Shown here: positions 11,708 to 43,258 of the stretch, in pieces
How the letters are laid out: each line of letters starts with the position of its first letter
Numbering within the stretch: the first letter of the stretch is position 1
Translations under genes and position numbers: made by a program
Assembly (NCBI RefSeq): GCF_000504285.1
Contig: NZ_KI632511.1
Span: forward strand, 4,709,372 to 4,773,371
DNA: 64,000 bases
Reading direction: 5' to 3'
Origin: Actinospica robiniae DSM 44927
GTDB lineage: Bacteria; Actinomycetota; Actinomycetes; Streptomycetales; Catenulisporaceae
The notes under the pieces: model-generated
Databases searched by the model: none
Told to the model about the DNA's origin: nothing
Seen by the model: only the letters and a program-made list of their open reading frames with translations

Positions 11708-11809
11708 GGTCATGAGTACCAGCGCGTAGCCCCGGCTCGCTGGTCGGCAACCCTTCGTCCGCGATGGGGTGCCCCGGGTGAAGACCGGGCCGCGCGGTAG
11801 GCGCGCGGC
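11708..11809 (+). promoter_or_regulatory. SAM-IV riboswitch
   Basis: The stretch reads GGTCATGAGTACCAGCG, then AGCCCCGGCTCGCTGGTCGG, then CAACCCTT and GATGGGGTGCCCCGGGTGAA, closing with GACC at 11783-11786. These blocks and their order match what I remember of the actinobacterial SAM-IV consensus very closely, including the GGTC/GACC closing stem. An 8-bp hairpin (11789-11796 with 11802-11809) follows directly and may be part of the 3' pseudoknot or the expression platform. It lies 115 bases before the ATG of the PLP enzyme, whose expression it should repress when S-adenosylmethionine is plentiful. Confidence 0.88.
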
Positions 11810-11924
11810 AAGCGCGGATTCGTGGTGGCTTCAGCCCGCCGGTACCTCACTCAACGTATTGAGAATCGTGCCGCGAACGTGGCGGTCTCCTCGTTTCCCC
11901 GGAACCCGACTGGGGTGCCTGGCG

Positions 11925-38430: not shown

Positions 38431-38695
38431 GTCAGGAGGCTGCACGCGCTCGGGCGGCCGGGACCGGGACGAGATCGGGTAGGGACACAGCTCTCCCTCA
38501 CCCGCATCACCCCACGTCAGCTCGCCCAAGCGCTACGGCGCCGCAGCTCCGCACCGTCTCACGTCCGGTCCGCATGGTGGGATCGGCTCGACATCGGCCC
38601 AGATCCGGTGCGACCCTGGGCCCATGTCCCCTGTCGAGTCAGCCTTCCGGCGAGCCGCCTCGCCCCGCGGAACGCGCGGGCGTCGTGTGGCCCTG

Positions 38696-38752
38696 GTGAG
38701 CCGCAGGCATGTGGACTTCGGCCGGATGTCCAGCGCCATCTGTCAAGCCTGA
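38696..38752 (+). CDS. Leader peptide upstream of sulfite reductase (HVDFGRMSSAIC motif)
   Basis: A GTG-started frame of 18 codons reads MSRRHVDFGRMSSAICQA. It is 163 bases before the sulfite reductase gene. The core HVDFGRMSSAIC is clearly related to HVDLKRVSSAVC in the second leader peptide at 42122, which precedes the cysH operon. Short peptides of this type ending near a cysteine are known as putative leader peptides ahead of sulfur genes in actinomycetes; the inferred job is cysteine-dependent attenuation of the downstream gene. No strong ribosome-binding site is seen. Confidence 0.75.
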   Translation: MSRRHVDFGRMSSAICQA

Positions 38753-38915
38753 CGGCTCCACGCTCGGCGGGCTTCGCCCGGTCTCCGCGGCCGGCCGCAC
38801 GTCCATCCGCTACGGCGGGACGTGCTGGGTCAGGCATGAGGCCCCGTCCCCGCCCGGGCCACCGCCGACACCCTCAGCTCCGCCGCCGCCGATCCCGACG
38901 AAGGACAGCCCCGCC

Positions 38916-40667
38916 ATGACGACCACCGAGTCGGATACGCCCGCCACGCCCACGACGACTCCCGCCGCGGGGAGCGCGCCGGCGCCGGTGGCGTCGGTCA
39001 AGCAGCACCAGATCCACCGGCACCGCGGCGAGGGGCAGTGGGCCAAGGGACACTTCACGCCCCTCAACAACAACGAGCAGGTCAAGAAGGACGACGACGG
39101 GCTCAACGTCCGCTCGCGGATCGAGAACATATACGCGATACGCGGATTCGAGTCCATCGACGGCGCGGACCTGCGCGGCCGGATGCGCTGGTGGGGGCTC
39201 TACACGCAGCGGCGGCCCGGGATCGACGGCGGGCGCACCGCCGTGCTCGAGCCGCACGAGCTCGACGACGAGTACTTCATGCTCCGCGTGCGCATCGACG
39301 GCGGGCGGCTGACGCTCGCTCAGCTGCGCGCCATCGCCACCGTCTCCACCGAGTACGCCCGTGGCACAGCCGACATCACCGACCGGCAGAACATCCAGCT
39401 GCACTGGATCCGGATCGAGGACGTGCCGACGATCTGGCGCATCCTCGAGGGCGTCGGGCTGACCACGGCCGAGGCCTGCGGCGACGTGCCGCGCGTCATC
39501 CTGGGCTCGCCGGTGGCGGGGGTGGCCAAGGACGAGATCCTCGACGGCACCTCGGCGATCGAGGAGATCACCGAGCGCCACATCGGCTCCCCGGAGTTCT
39601 CCAACCTGCCGCGGAAGTTCAAGACCGCGATCTCCGGGCTCCAGGACGTCGTGCACGAGGCCAACGACGTCTCGTTCGTCGGCGTCGAGCACCCCGAGCT
39701 CGGCCCGGGCTTCGACCTCTGGGTCGGCGGCGGGCTGTCGACCAACCCGCAGTTCGCGAAGCGGCTCGGCGCCTTCGTCACCCTCGCCGAGGTGCCCGAG
39801 GTGTGGTGCGGGGTGGTCGGGATCTTCCGCGATTACGGCTACCGGCGGCTGCGCAACCGGGCCCGGCTGAAGTTCCTGATGGCCGACTGGGGACCGGAGA
39901 AGTTCCGCGAGGTGCTCGAGACCGAGTACCTCAAGCGCGCGCTGCCCGACGGCCCGGCGCCGGCCTTCGTCCCGCCGGCCGAGCGCGACCACGTGGGCGT
40001 GCACGAGCAGAAGGACGGCAAGTTCTACGTGGGCTTCGCGCCGCGGGTCGGGCGGGTCGACGGCCAGACCCTCGCGCGGATCGCGGACGCCGCCGAAGCG
40101 GCCGGGTCGGGGCGGGTGCACACCACGGCCGATCAGAAGATGATCGTCCTCGACGTCCCGGCGGAGAACGTGGAAGCGCTGATCGACACGCTCGAGGCGC
40201 TGGACCTGCAGGTACGCCCGAGCGTCTTCCGCCGGCACACCATGGCCTGCACCGGGATCGAGTTCTGCAAGCTCGCGATCGTGGAGACCAAGGCGCTCGG
40301 CTCGTCCGTGATCGACGAGTTGGAGAAGCGGCTCGAGGGCTTCGACACGCCGGTGACGATCAACATCAACGGCTGCCCCAACTCCTGCGCCCGCATCCAG
40401 ACCGCTGACATCGGCCTCAAGGGCCAGGTCGTGCGGGACAAGTCGGGCGAGCAGGTGGAGGGCTTCCAGGTGCACCTCGGCGGCCACTTCGGCGCGGACC
40501 TGGACGACGCCGGGTCCTTCGGCCGCAAGGTGCGCGGGCTCAAGGTGACCGCGACGGAGCTGCCGGACTACATCGAGCGGGTGCTGCGGCGCTACCAGGC
40601 GGACCGGACGGAGGGCGAGTCCTTCGCCGTGTGGACGGTCCGCGCGTCGGAAGCCGACCTGGCCTAG
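38916..40667 (+). CDS. sir: Ferredoxin-dependent sulfite reductase (nitrite/sulfite reductase family)
   Basis: The enzyme reduces sulfite to sulfide using siroheme and a [4Fe-4S] cluster. The 583-residue protein has the cluster/siroheme cysteines Cys445 and Cys451 (MACTGIEFCK) and Cys487 and Cys491 (NGCPNSCAR). It also keeps a tyrosine in WWGLYTQRRPG and a cysteine in EACGDVPR, the pair that is cross-linked in mycobacterial sulfite reductase NirA. The first 30 residues are Thr/Pro-rich filler. It is monocistronic here, with a leader peptide upstream and a very strong hairpin downstream; its siroheme should come from the chelatase at 48534. Confidence 0.92.
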   Translation: MTTTESDTPATPTTTPAAGSAPAPVASVKQHQIHRHRGEGQWAKGHFTPLNNNEQVKKDDDGLNVRSRIENIYAIRGFESIDGADLRGRMRWWGLYTQRRPGIDGGRTAVLEPHELDDEYFMLRVRIDGGRLTLAQLRAIATVSTEYARGTADITDRQNIQLHWIRIEDVPTIWRILEGVGLTTAEACGDVPRVILGSPVAGVAKDEILDGTSAIEEITERHIGSPEFSNLPRKFKTAISGLQDVVHEANDVSFVGVEHPELGPGFDLWVGGGLSTNPQFAKRLGAFVTLAEVPEVWCGVVGIFRDYGYRRLRNRARLKFLMADWGPEKFREVLETEYLKRALPDGPAPAFVPPAERDHVGVHEQKDGKFYVGFAPRVGRVDGQTLARIADAAEAAGSGRVHTTADQKMIVLDVPAENVEALIDTLEALDLQVRPSVFRRHTMACTGIEFCKLAIVETKALGSSVIDELEKRLEGFDTPVTININGCPNSCARIQTADIGLKGQVVRDKSGEQVEGFQVHLGGHFGADLDDAGSFGRKVRGLKVTATELPDYIERVLRRYQADRTEGESFAVWTVRASEADLA

Positions 40668-40708
40668 CCGCGAAGAACCCAAGAAGGCGAAGAAGACGAA
40701 GAACGTGT

Positions 40709-40754
40709 GGAACTCGGCCCGGCCCCGCTGCACCGCGGGGCCGGGCCGAGTTCC
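40709..40754 (+). terminator. 20-bp perfect terminator hairpin after sulfite reductase
   Basis: Arms 40709-40728 and 40735-40754 pair perfectly, with the loop TGCACC. The stem carries GGAACTCGGCC at its base. It follows the sulfite reductase stop by 41 bases and precedes the thiolase gene. Confidence 0.85.
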
Positions 40755-40799
40755 GTACCGGCGGGTAACAAAAGCCGTCGGGCGCAGTAGGCTGGGGAT

Positions 40800-41957
40800 A
40801 TGAGCGAGGCTTACATCGTCGGTGCGGTCCGCACTCCGGTCGGCAAGCGGGGCGGGGCGCTGGCCGCCGTGCACCCGGCCGACCTCGGCGCGCACGCGCT
40901 GCGGGCGCTGATGGAGCGCACCGGGGTGGATCCGGGCGCGGTCGAGGACGTCGTCTTCGGCTGCATCGACACGGTCGGGCCGCAGAGCACGGACATCGCG
41001 CGCACGGCCTGGCTCGCGGCCGGCCTGCCCGAGCACGTGCCGGGCGTCACCATCGACCGGCAGTGCGGATCCTCGCAGCAGGCGGTGCATTTCGCAGCGC
41101 AGGCGGTCATGTCCGGCACCAGCGACCTGGTGGTGGCCGGCGGCGTGCAGAACATGTCGCAGATCCCGCTGTGGTACTCGGGTTCGGCCGCGGTCGAGCC
41201 GCTGGGGCTGACCTCGGGGCCGTTCCACGGCTCCCGGGGCTGGACCGAGCGCTACGGGACGCAGCAGGTCAGCCAGTTCCACGGTGCCGAGATGATCGCG
41301 GCGGAGTGGAAGATCAGCCGGGACGAGATGGAGCAGTGGGCGCTGCGGTCGCACGAGCGCGCCGTCGCCGCGATCGACGCCGGGTACTTCGAGCGGGAGA
41401 TCGCGCCCTACGGGGACTTAGCCGTGGACGAGGGGCCGCGGCGCGGCACCAGCCTGGAGCAGATGGCCGGCCTCAAGACCCTGGTTCCGGACGGACGGCT
41501 GACCGCGGCCGTCTCCTCGCCCACCAACGACGCCTCGGCCGCGCTGCTGATCGCCTCCGAGCAGGCGGTGCGCGAGCACGGGCTGACCCCGCGGGCCCGG
41601 ATCCACCACCTGTCGGTGCGCGGCGACGACCCGATCCGGATGCTCACGGCCCCGATCCCGGCCACCGCGCACGCCCTGCGCAAGACCGGCCTCGACCTCG
41701 CCGACATCGATCTCGTCGAGATCAACGAGGCCTTCGCCAGCGTGGTGCTGGCCTGGCTGCGGGAGACCGGCTGCGACCCGGCGAAGGTGAACGTCAACGG
41801 CGGCGCGATCGCGCTGGGGCACCCGATCGGGGCGACCGGCGCGCGGTTGATGACGACGCTGCTGCACGAGCTCGAGCGCACCGGCGGCCGCTATGGGCTG
41901 CAGACCATGTGCGAGGGCGGCGGGCAGGCGAACGTGACGATCATCGAAAGGCTCTGA
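40800..41957 (+). CDS. Thiolase (acetyl-CoA acetyltransferase family)
   Basis: The 385-residue protein has the thiolase active-site residues Cys89 (RQCGSSQQAVHF), His341 (GHPIGATGAR) and Cys371 (MCEGGGQAN), and the NEAFAS motif. It either condenses two acyl-CoA molecules or cleaves 3-ketoacyl-CoA. It stands alone between two parts of the sulfur region and is insulated from sulfite reductase by a terminator, so it is probably not part of sulfur metabolism. Confidence 0.9.
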   Translation: MSEAYIVGAVRTPVGKRGGALAAVHPADLGAHALRALMERTGVDPGAVEDVVFGCIDTVGPQSTDIARTAWLAAGLPEHVPGVTIDRQCGSSQQAVHFAAQAVMSGTSDLVVAGGVQNMSQIPLWYSGSAAVEPLGLTSGPFHGSRGWTERYGTQQVSQFHGAEMIAAEWKISRDEMEQWALRSHERAVAAIDAGYFEREIAPYGDLAVDEGPRRGTSLEQMAGLKTLVPDGRLTAAVSSPTNDASAALLIASEQAVREHGLTPRARIHHLSVRGDDPIRMLTAPIPATAHALRKTGLDLADIDLVEINEAFASVVLAWLRETGCDPAKVNVNGGAIALGHPIGATGARLMTTLLHELERTGGRYGLQTMCEGGGQANVTIIERL

Positions 41958-42121
41958 GGGGCGAGATCGAGAACGGCCGGGGCGGCCCGTGCCCTCGGGG
42001 CGGCCCGTCGTCGTGCGCTGCCATGGCCCGCGTTGATCACGGAAATGTTACGCGTCTCAATCTCCCGTCCGCATGGCGGGACAAGGTAGACGCCACGGTC
42101 TCGGGATGGCACTCTCGAAGC

Positions 42122-42211
42122 ATGTCCCGCACCGGAATCGCCCTCGTAGGCCGACTGCACGTCGACCTCAAGCGCGTCTCCAGCGCGGTCTGTCTGCCGC
42201 CGCTGCGCTAA
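42122..42211 (+). CDS. Leader peptide upstream of the cysH operon (HVDLKRVSSAVC motif)
   Basis: An ATG-started frame of 29 codons begins MSRTGIALVGRL and continues into HVDLKRVSSAVC, then LPPLR and a TAA stop. It shares the core with the leader at 38696: H-V-D-x-x-R-x-S-S-A-x-C, conserved in two places ahead of two sulfur units. It ends 160 bases before the zinc-ribbon gene that opens the cysHDN operon. Translation-dependent control by cysteine supply is inferred. Confidence 0.78.
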   Translation: MSRTGIALVGRLHVDLKRVSSAVCLPPLR

Positions 42212-42371
42212 ATCCCCCCGCTGCCATCCGAGCCTTCCTCCCCGCCCCCACCACCGGAGCCGGGCGCCGAAGGCGAAACGCGGGACGGGCTGCGCGTCGG
42301 CCGCCGATCCCACTCTCCCGACGGCCGGGCCGGCCCGTGGTACCGCCCTGACCCGGAAGAGGAATCACGCC

Positions 42372-42545
42372 GTGAGCGAACGAGCCGCACCGCAGTACTG
42401 CCCGTACTGCGGCGACGAGGATCTGCGACCCGAGGTCCTGCCGGAAGACGACCCCCGCGCCGGACACGGCCTGTGGCTGTGCCGCGCCTGCGCCCGTGTA
42501 TTCAAGATCTCTTTCGTCGGATTGAAGATAGGCAGCGGTTCATGA
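42372..42545 (+). CDS. Small zinc-ribbon protein, translationally coupled to cysH
   Basis: The 57-residue protein has two CxxC pairs, Cys10/Cys13 (YCPYCGDEDLRP) and Cys37/Cys40 (LWLCRACARVFKI), 24 residues apart, the pattern of a small zinc ribbon. The GTG start follows the leader peptide region, and its stop overlaps the ATG of cysH (ATGA), so it is the first gene of the operon. Very similar small proteins stand ahead of cysH in Streptomyces as I recall them. Its function is unknown; the position suggests a helper or regulator of sulfate reduction, or an additional coupling leader. Confidence 0.78.
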   Translation: MSERAAPQYCPYCGDEDLRPEVLPEDDPRAGHGLWLCRACARVFKISFVGLKIGSGS

Positions 42546-43258
42546 GCACTCTCGTCTCACGTTCCGAGCACACCGAGGCCGAACTGCGGGCACTCGCGGA
42601 CGAGGCGGAGGAGCGCTTCGGCGCTTCGTCCGGCGGCGAGGTGCTCGCCTGGGCCGCCGAGACCTTCGGCTCCGGCCTCGTGGTCGCCTCGTCGATGGCC
42701 GACACGCACCTGGTGCACCTGGCCCAGGCGGCCGCACCCGGCGTCGACGTGCTCTTCCTGGACACCGGCTACCACTTCGTCGAGACCATCGGCACCCGGG
42801 ACGCGGTGGCGGCCGTCTACGACGTCAATCTGCTCTCGATCACCCCGCTGCGGACCGTGGCCGAGCAGGACGCCGAGTACGGTCCCCAGCTGCACGACCG
42901 GGACCCCGAGCGCTGCTGCGCGCTGCGCAAGGTGGAGCCGCTCGAGCGCGGCCTGAAGCCCTACACCGCGTGGGTCAACGGGATGCGCCGGGTGGACGCG
43001 CCCACCCGCACCGATATCAGGGTCGTGGACTACGACGCCAAGCGCGGCATGGTCAAGATCTCGCCGCTGGCCGGCTGGACCGACGAGGACGTGGCCGCCT
43101 ACGTCGAGAAGCACGGCGTGCTGGTCAACCCGCTGTTCCAGGACGGCTACACCTCGATCGGCTGCGAGCCGTGCACCCGCCGCACCCTGCCGGGCGAGGA
43201 CCCGCGGGCCGGGCGCTGGGCCGGATTCGCCAAGACCGAGTGCGGACTGCACACGTGA
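42542..43258 (+). CDS. cysH: Adenylylsulfate (APS) reductase
   Basis: CysH reduces activated sulfate to sulfite. The 238-residue protein has Cys125-Cys126 (ERCCALRKV) and Cys208-x2-Cys211 (GCEPCTRR), which bind the [4Fe-4S] cluster typical of APS-specific reductases, and the catalytic ECGLH at the C-terminus. PAPS-specific enzymes lack the cluster cysteines, so APS is the predicted substrate. This fits the absence of an APS kinase gene (cysC) in the operon. The ATG overlaps the stop of the zinc-ribbon gene. Confidence 0.92.
   Translation: MSTLVSRSEHTEAELRALADEAEERFGASSGGEVLAWAAETFGSGLVVASSMADTHLVHLAQAAAPGVDVLFLDTGYHFVETIGTRDAVAAVYDVNLLSITPLRTVAEQDAEYGPQLHDRDPERCCALRKVEPLERGLKPYTAWVNGMRRVDAPTRTDIRVVDYDAKRGMVKISPLAGWTDEDVAAYVEKHGVLVNPLFQDGYTSIGCEPCTRRTLPGEDPRAGRWAGFAKTECGLHT

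Follow-up and report, generated by a model that had tools for sequence, protein, structure and literature searches.

The stretch of DNA analysed here, 64,000 nucleotides of the Actinospica robiniae DSM 44927 genome (the window; positions are counted within it), contains two short open reading frames (ORFs) located upstream of a sulfite/nitrite reductase gene and of a gene overlapping cysH, respectively. Comparison with related sequences indicates that the encoded peptides are members of a known family, the actinobacterial cysteine leader peptides, for which a fixed codon choice at the last cysteine and pairs of leaders with tRNA-Cys genes offer points for experiment. Based on the sequence we presume, with a probability of about 0.6, that both leaders are translated and act in cis as cysteine attenuators, sensing Cys-tRNA at a UGU codon behind a conserved nascent chain.

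Two leader peptides of a known family

38624 to 38752, plus strand: leader peptide 1, 42 amino acids, MSPVESAFRRAASPRGTRGRRVALVSRRHVDFGRMSSAICQA, start chosen by conservation in two genomes of the same genus
38741 to 38743, plus strand: TGT, the final Cys codon of peptide 1 and putative sensor codon
38916 to 40667, plus strand: sulfite/nitrite reductase gene (sir/nirA-like), by a Pfam match to NIR_SIR
42122 to 42211, plus strand: leader peptide 2, 29 amino acids, MSRTGIALVGRLHVDLKRVSSAVCLPPLR, 34 bits with NCBIfam NF042934 (cut-off 27)
42191 to 42193, plus strand: TGT, the final Cys codon of peptide 2 and putative sensor codon
42372 to 42545, plus strand: gene of a 57-amino-acid CxxC protein, the first after leader 2, no Pfam or NCBIfam match
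42542 to 43258, plus strand: cysH, (phospho)adenylyl-sulfate reductase, overlapped by the CxxC protein gene

The motifs HVDFGRMSSAIC (ORF ending at 38752) and HVDLKRVSSAVC (ORF 42122-42211) were the only six-frame matches to the pattern HVD.{5,7}SA.C in the 64 kb. They confirm the common motif that an earlier note, made from the letters of this DNA, had described for the two peptides, as well as the cysteine near the peptide end, which was found at a fixed place; it is the single cysteine of each peptide, and no run of adjacent Cys codons is present. The distance of 160-163 bases to the next gene given in that note also agrees with the sequence, with 163 bases from the stop codon of peptide 1 to ATG 38916 and 160 bases from that of peptide 2 to GTG 42372. 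Its statement that each peptide precedes a sulfur gene applies directly to peptide 1 with its sulfite/nitrite reductase, whereas peptide 2 adjoins the gene of the CxxC protein, which in turn overlaps cysH. This small gene before cysH is also kept in a genome of the same genus (G015).

The length of 18 residues proposed for peptide 1, with a start at GTG 38696, had to be revised. In the two searchable genomes of the same genus this codon is replaced by GTA in one and by GTC in the other, whereas ATG 38624 and the reading frame are kept in both across a 3-base indel. The 18-residue reading therefore seems unlikely, and ATG 38624 is the probable start of peptide 1, which then comprises 42 amino acids.

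Peptide 2 lies above the curated cut-off of the NCBIfam model NF042934 (cis_reg_atten, “putative leader peptide”) also in the genome search (32.7 bits), whereas peptide 1 with 25.1 bits (25.5 bits in the genome search) falls just under it. Both window copies share with the family the core RxHVDLxRxxSAxC and the sulfur genes downstream. Judged by its shared register, place and codon rather than by the model score, peptide 1 is held to be a divergent relative. With the Ms4527A leader model NF042936 the window peptides reached 27.1 and 36.8 bits, both under the cut-off of 45.

The NF042934 genome search recovered both window places (E 1.1e-6 and 1.9e-4) and revealed ten places above the cut-off in the same genome, or 14 up to E 0.03, all of which could be read as leaders. 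At E <= 0.001 matches were present in all 60 genomes from the same order, including that of A. robiniae, as compared with none of 14 control genomes. Matches were further detected in 110 of the 148 genomes of the class and in 8 of 100 genomes drawn from the whole phylum; seven of these eight belong to the same class, while the remaining one, G243, lacked confirmation by the leader pattern.

Predictions of related leaders for Mycobacterium, P. acnes and B. longum date from 2005 (Seliverstov 2005, PMC1262725). As far as the available part of that paper goes, they resemble the window leaders in the cysteine near the stop codon, the lack of a terminator, the pyrimidine-rich gap and the proposal of Rho, and they differ in their runs of Cys codons and the absence of a codon rule; the Rho prediction was called weak by its authors. 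Excerpts of later papers report that ribosome profiling detected related leaders in 2015, one of them before nirA (PMC4633059), and cite mycobacterial leaders as cysteine-responsive attenuators, in M. smegmatis of translation (Canestrari 2020; PMC13236596, PMC9031893, PMC9094748). In the available portion of a reannotation of S. lividans, eight leader peptides are described and none is assigned to cysteine (PMC8079986).

The mycobacterial polycysteine attenuators encoded by leaderless small ORFs and the Ms4527A leader (NF042936) share with the window-type leaders the leaderless placement, predicted in the case of the latter, and the position before sulfur genes including nirA/sir, and the window-type leaders align in register with the polycysteine leaders L050-L053. 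However, the former carry a run of cysteines in contrast to the single Cys codon of the window copies, both of which remain under the NF042936 cut-off.

Selection on the peptide and the fixed TGT codon

The loci compared come from the better-scoring places among the matches listed. The discovery set comprised 206 loci, and 166 distinct leaders were obtained from 165 of them; eight repeated a leader already counted and 33 gave none. The latter include seven probable chance hits (L015-L020 and L078) and a further 26 loci, all of which except L080 were read later. The first held-out set (107 loci) contributed 94 counted leaders, with nine loci lacking a leader according to the pattern and all later read. 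The second held-out set consisted of 80 loci among the matches listed for the peptide pattern HVDLxR[VMT][SA]SA and yielded 60 distinct leaders. The non-redundant sets were obtained by removing leaders with an identity of 80% or more in the stretch compared.

Across 227 non-redundant leaders, the first, second and third positions of the 13 codons leading up to the last Cys carry a mean information of 0.98, 1.53 and 0.33 bits, respectively, as compared with 0.014 bits in the flanks. Arg(-2) and Asp(2) are each present in 227/227 leaders, encoded by six codons in the first case and by both Asp codons in the second. The excess of synonymous change among homologues, which the earlier note had suggested as a check, is thus present, and together with the position of the -10 elements, which in many leaders suits a leaderless start (see below), it supports the claim that the peptides are translated. 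The view that the peptide rather than the DNA is conserved holds for the peptide as a whole and fails at the last Cys codon (38741-38743, 42191-42193), where a synonymous choice is itself conserved.

This last Cys codon is TGT in 165/166 discovery leaders, the exception being L077 with TGC, as opposed to 17.6% TGT among the 581 Cys codons of neighbouring ORFs that served as background. TGT was likewise found in 94/94 and 60/60 leaders of the two held-out sets, making 319 of 320 distinct leaders overall, and in 34/34 further leaders missed by the pattern (35 loci read, with L080 unresolved). Elsewhere in these leaders Cys is mostly encoded by TGC (113/119 at HVDLC; 36/45 and 11/13 for a Cys two residues before the end), and 35 TGC and one TGT were counted in nine ORFs of the window, a tenth being out of frame. 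The last Cys codon is mostly located 2-4 codons ahead of the stop, and in 127/136 cases TGT is followed by a pyrimidine (C or T). A variant leader, RRVHMDLVRYAGCVC, which occurs at L042, L079, L111 and similar loci outside the pattern used, has the same TGT.

A pyrimidine 3' of a codon is a poor context according to suppressor work. We infer that TGT followed by a pyrimidine represents a codon made slow, its U being read by G-U wobble. Two tRNA-Cys genes were found in the A. robiniae genome, both with the anticodon GCA, in a search that allowed three mismatches and could miss others. In the part of a model paper available to us the codon choice in attenuators is attributed to isoacceptor charging (PMC1183508). 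Provided that tRNA-Cys(GCA) is the sole reader of both Cys codons, as the two genes found suggest, isoacceptor charging could not account for TGT. No report of a fixed UGU was found among the titles and abstract openings of the top-ranked papers, which is no proof of novelty. The fixed TGT provides a one-base change (TGT to TGC) by which the speed of decoding can be told apart from the peptide sequence.

Start sites, gaps and targets of the leaders

38568 to 38582, plus strand: GTCCGCATGGTGGGA, 15-mer 56 bases before the ATG of leader 1, possible activator site
38612 to 38617, plus strand: GACCCT, -10-like element of peptide 1, 2/3 positions of TANNNT
38753 to 38915, plus strand: untranslated gap after leader 1, C 0.47, G 0.32 (measured over 38753-38895)
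42067 to 42081, plus strand: GTCCGCATGGCGGGA, the same 15-mer 55 bases before the ATG of leader 2
42110 to 42115, plus strand: CACTCT, -10-like element of peptide 2, 2/3 positions of TANNNT
42212 to 42371, plus strand: untranslated gap after leader 2, C 0.47, G 0.31 (measured over 42212-42351)

Many leaders appear to be leaderless because the spacing of TANNNT peaks 7-8 bases before the start: of 526 in-frame starts, 91 have the end of the element 7 or 8 bases ahead of them, and it is properly spaced in 100/212 leaders as compared with 9.8 in shifted controls. This placement suggests that transcription starts at or near the start codon of the leader.

The 15-mer upstream of both leaders (consensus GTCCGCATGGYGGGA, Y = C or T) is a possible regulator site; exact copies occur only at the two window sites in the 9.9 Mb genome, and it is partly conserved in the genus. 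As a genome-wide upstream motif it was rejected, with eight window matches at up to three mismatches versus 9.85 expected and 62 genome matches at up to two mismatches versus 41 for the reversed control; four near matches that were read had no leader. Other enriched upstream words may derive from related promoters.

The gaps behind the leaders are rich in C and poor in G, with a mean C-G of +0.150 in 193 gaps as compared with +0.005 in 337 control regions, which may be largely untranscribed (p 2e-44). They resemble in this respect the untranslated RNA after the leader in Rho-dependent, tnaC-like attenuators. An intrinsic terminator with a U-run of the trp type was considered and rejected, T-runs being present in 35/205 gaps versus 39.5 expected. 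The gap to sir comprises 163 bases here and about 55 in G015, and is therefore not conserved even within the genus. The absence of a T-run excess and the variable gap length argue against fixed terminator/antiterminator hairpins.

In the tnaC- and trp-type attenuation of enterobacteria the position of the ribosome in a short ORF sets downstream expression, and codon choice matters. The window-type leaders differ from these systems in having no U-run excess, no gap conserved within the genus and no known ligand. At gathering scores, Rfam detected nothing in the window but a SAM-IV riboswitch (11708-11820, 111.6 bits), away from the leaders. By eye, a long GC-rich inverted repeat without an evident T-run was seen after sir, at about 40708-40757.

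The genes behind the leaders are largely sulfur-related. Those following 164 of the 166 discovery leaders form 30 clusters, 12 of them with a single member; with one exception the seven largest are ThiS-like proteins (23), rhodaneses (21), DUF4395 proteins (21), sulfite reductases (19), luciferase-like monooxygenases (11), cysH (7) and FMN reductases (7). Clusters were named by Pfam on the representative or the window copy and otherwise by eye, and the downstream gene starts were predicted by script, so that some will be wrong. Regulator-like genes follow L007, L199 and the leaders of cluster 8, the representative having a weak match to MarR_2 below the cut-off; a ROK-type sulfur regulator is conceivable.

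A leader of the A. robiniae genome, MTTHERFFTRLHVDLRRQASALCRGPLGLTRV (L008:1327-1575, 30.2 bits), ends 71 bases before the second tRNA-Cys(GCA) gene, and G019 of the same genus has a leader before a tRNA-Cys(GCA) gene at two loci (L440, L451), the gaps being 56 and 15 bases long. The leader core and the tRNA-Cys are conserved among these pairs, whereas the gap is not. The A. robiniae leader is the only one among the 320 leaders with a tRNA downstream on the same strand, and in other genomes of the order the eight loci read around extra tRNA-Cys genes (L441, L443, L446-L450, L455) contained no leader. If the leader controls the tRNA, its output at these pairs must lie at the level of transcription or RNA, since a tRNA has no Shine-Dalgarno (SD) sequence; judged from this arrangement, control of transcription is likely.

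Proposed mechanism and rival explanations

According to the proposed mechanism, transcription would begin at or close to the leader start codon, and the ribosome would translate RxHVDLxRxxSAx and then meet the one UGU shortly before the stop. At scarce Cys-tRNA it would wait at UGU, aided by the conserved nascent chain, and the sulfur gene would be expressed; at ample Cys-tRNA it would reach the stop codon and expression would be cut, as suggested by the mycobacterial precedents. UGU would be kept because tRNA-Cys with the anticodon GCA reads it by G-U wobble, making it the slower Cys codon. The output would presumably be Rho-type control over the C-rich untranslated gap, perhaps together with occlusion of the SD sequence.

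The latter might also act alone: in a pure translational attenuation the leader 3' end, a stretch beginning with UGU and reaching slightly beyond the stop, would pair with the SD sequence of the next gene, and a ribosome held at UGU would free it. The leader 3' ends are indeed complementary to the downstream SD beyond chance, true pairs exceeding mismatched ones at 1/2000 GC-stratified permutations in the discovery set (n=127) and at p 0.0072 and 0.0015 in the first held-out set (n=59) for two windows picked on the discovery set before the held-out test. However, the effect is small; the second held-out set (n=25) gave p 0.20 and 0.055, and control windows reached 41/2000 (p 0.02) in the discovery set and 0.045/0.074 in the held-out test. 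The SD-containing words CAGGAG, TCAGGA and ACAGGA are enriched, and masking 30 nt at UGU opens the predicted SD slightly beyond control masks (Wilcoxon p 0.03; gain >0.25 in 9 versus 0 of 171). However, a mask at the stop codon is as effective as one at UGU (difference p 0.56), and the window copies showed no gain in predicted openness under the UGU mask (0.57 to 0.58 and 0.23 to 0.22, the start of gene 2 being set one base late). Taking furthermore into account that SD occlusion cannot serve tRNA-Cys targets, pure translational attenuation appears doubtful, despite the translation attenuation reported for M. smegmatis by citing papers. Transcription-level control over the C-rich gap seems somewhat more likely than pure SD occlusion, and both may act. 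Of the two outputs named in the earlier note, readthrough is favoured by the C-rich gaps and the tRNA-Cys targets, ribosome access by the leader-SD complementarity and the M. smegmatis precedent.

TGT may have been fixed for a reason other than decoding, namely because it overlaps an RNA or DNA element, for instance a site of pairing or of protein binding. The bias of the base after TGT would fit such an element, as would Ser at column 8, which is AGC or AGT in 114/123 leaders and extends the nucleotide bias to more than one codon. However, AGY and TCN are two steps apart and the serine bias may be inherited, a pairing site would be expected to covary with its partner and not to remain constant, and the bases around TGT have an average pairing probability. 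TGT as an SD-pairing base was rejected, the 12 bases around it having no excess complementarity (z -0.2 and -0.4). Such an element is hence considered unlikely. Still less probable is a nascent chain that senses a small molecule in the exit tunnel (free cysteine, sulfide or another thiol), like TnaC with tryptophan, with Cys-tRNA not being the signal. Residues far from the cysteine are as conserved as in arrest peptides, and classical attenuators need less conservation far from the sensor residue; the fixed synonymous codon nevertheless points to decoding. The strong conservation of the peptides could finally indicate small proteins acting in trans, which is very improbable given the variable length and sequence of the N-terminus, the 14 copies before different genes in one genome and the fixed synonymous site.

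Several further points weigh against the proposed attenuation by Cys-tRNA with Rho-type output, in addition to the leader-SD complementarity and the nature of the C-G control regions. SD-like words precede a start in 62/212 leaders as compared with 38.8 in controls. The slowness of UGU before a pyrimidine is a presumption from general background. The M. smegmatis precedent is cited as attenuation of translation, contrary to Rho as the main output, at least in the parts of the citing papers available. Moreover, a ribosome stalled at UGU would shield no more than the beginning of a gap that can be 160 nt long, which does not explain how Rho would be blocked.

While the family is known, its working parts are less so. 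The tRNA-Cys pairs represent natural constructs in which SD occlusion is not possible, and they bear on the question of Rho raised in 2005 (PMC1262725). As a tentative extension, which we hold to be less probable than the attenuator reading itself, the leaders may form a class-wide cysteine sensor in which UGU, decoded by wobble and set at a constant distance from the conserved nascent chain, serves a sulfur regulon with up to 14 leaders in A. robiniae, and which in this genus also controls the supply of tRNA-Cys by transcription. If true, a shortage of Cys-tRNA would thereby feed back on the synthesis of tRNA-Cys in the genus.

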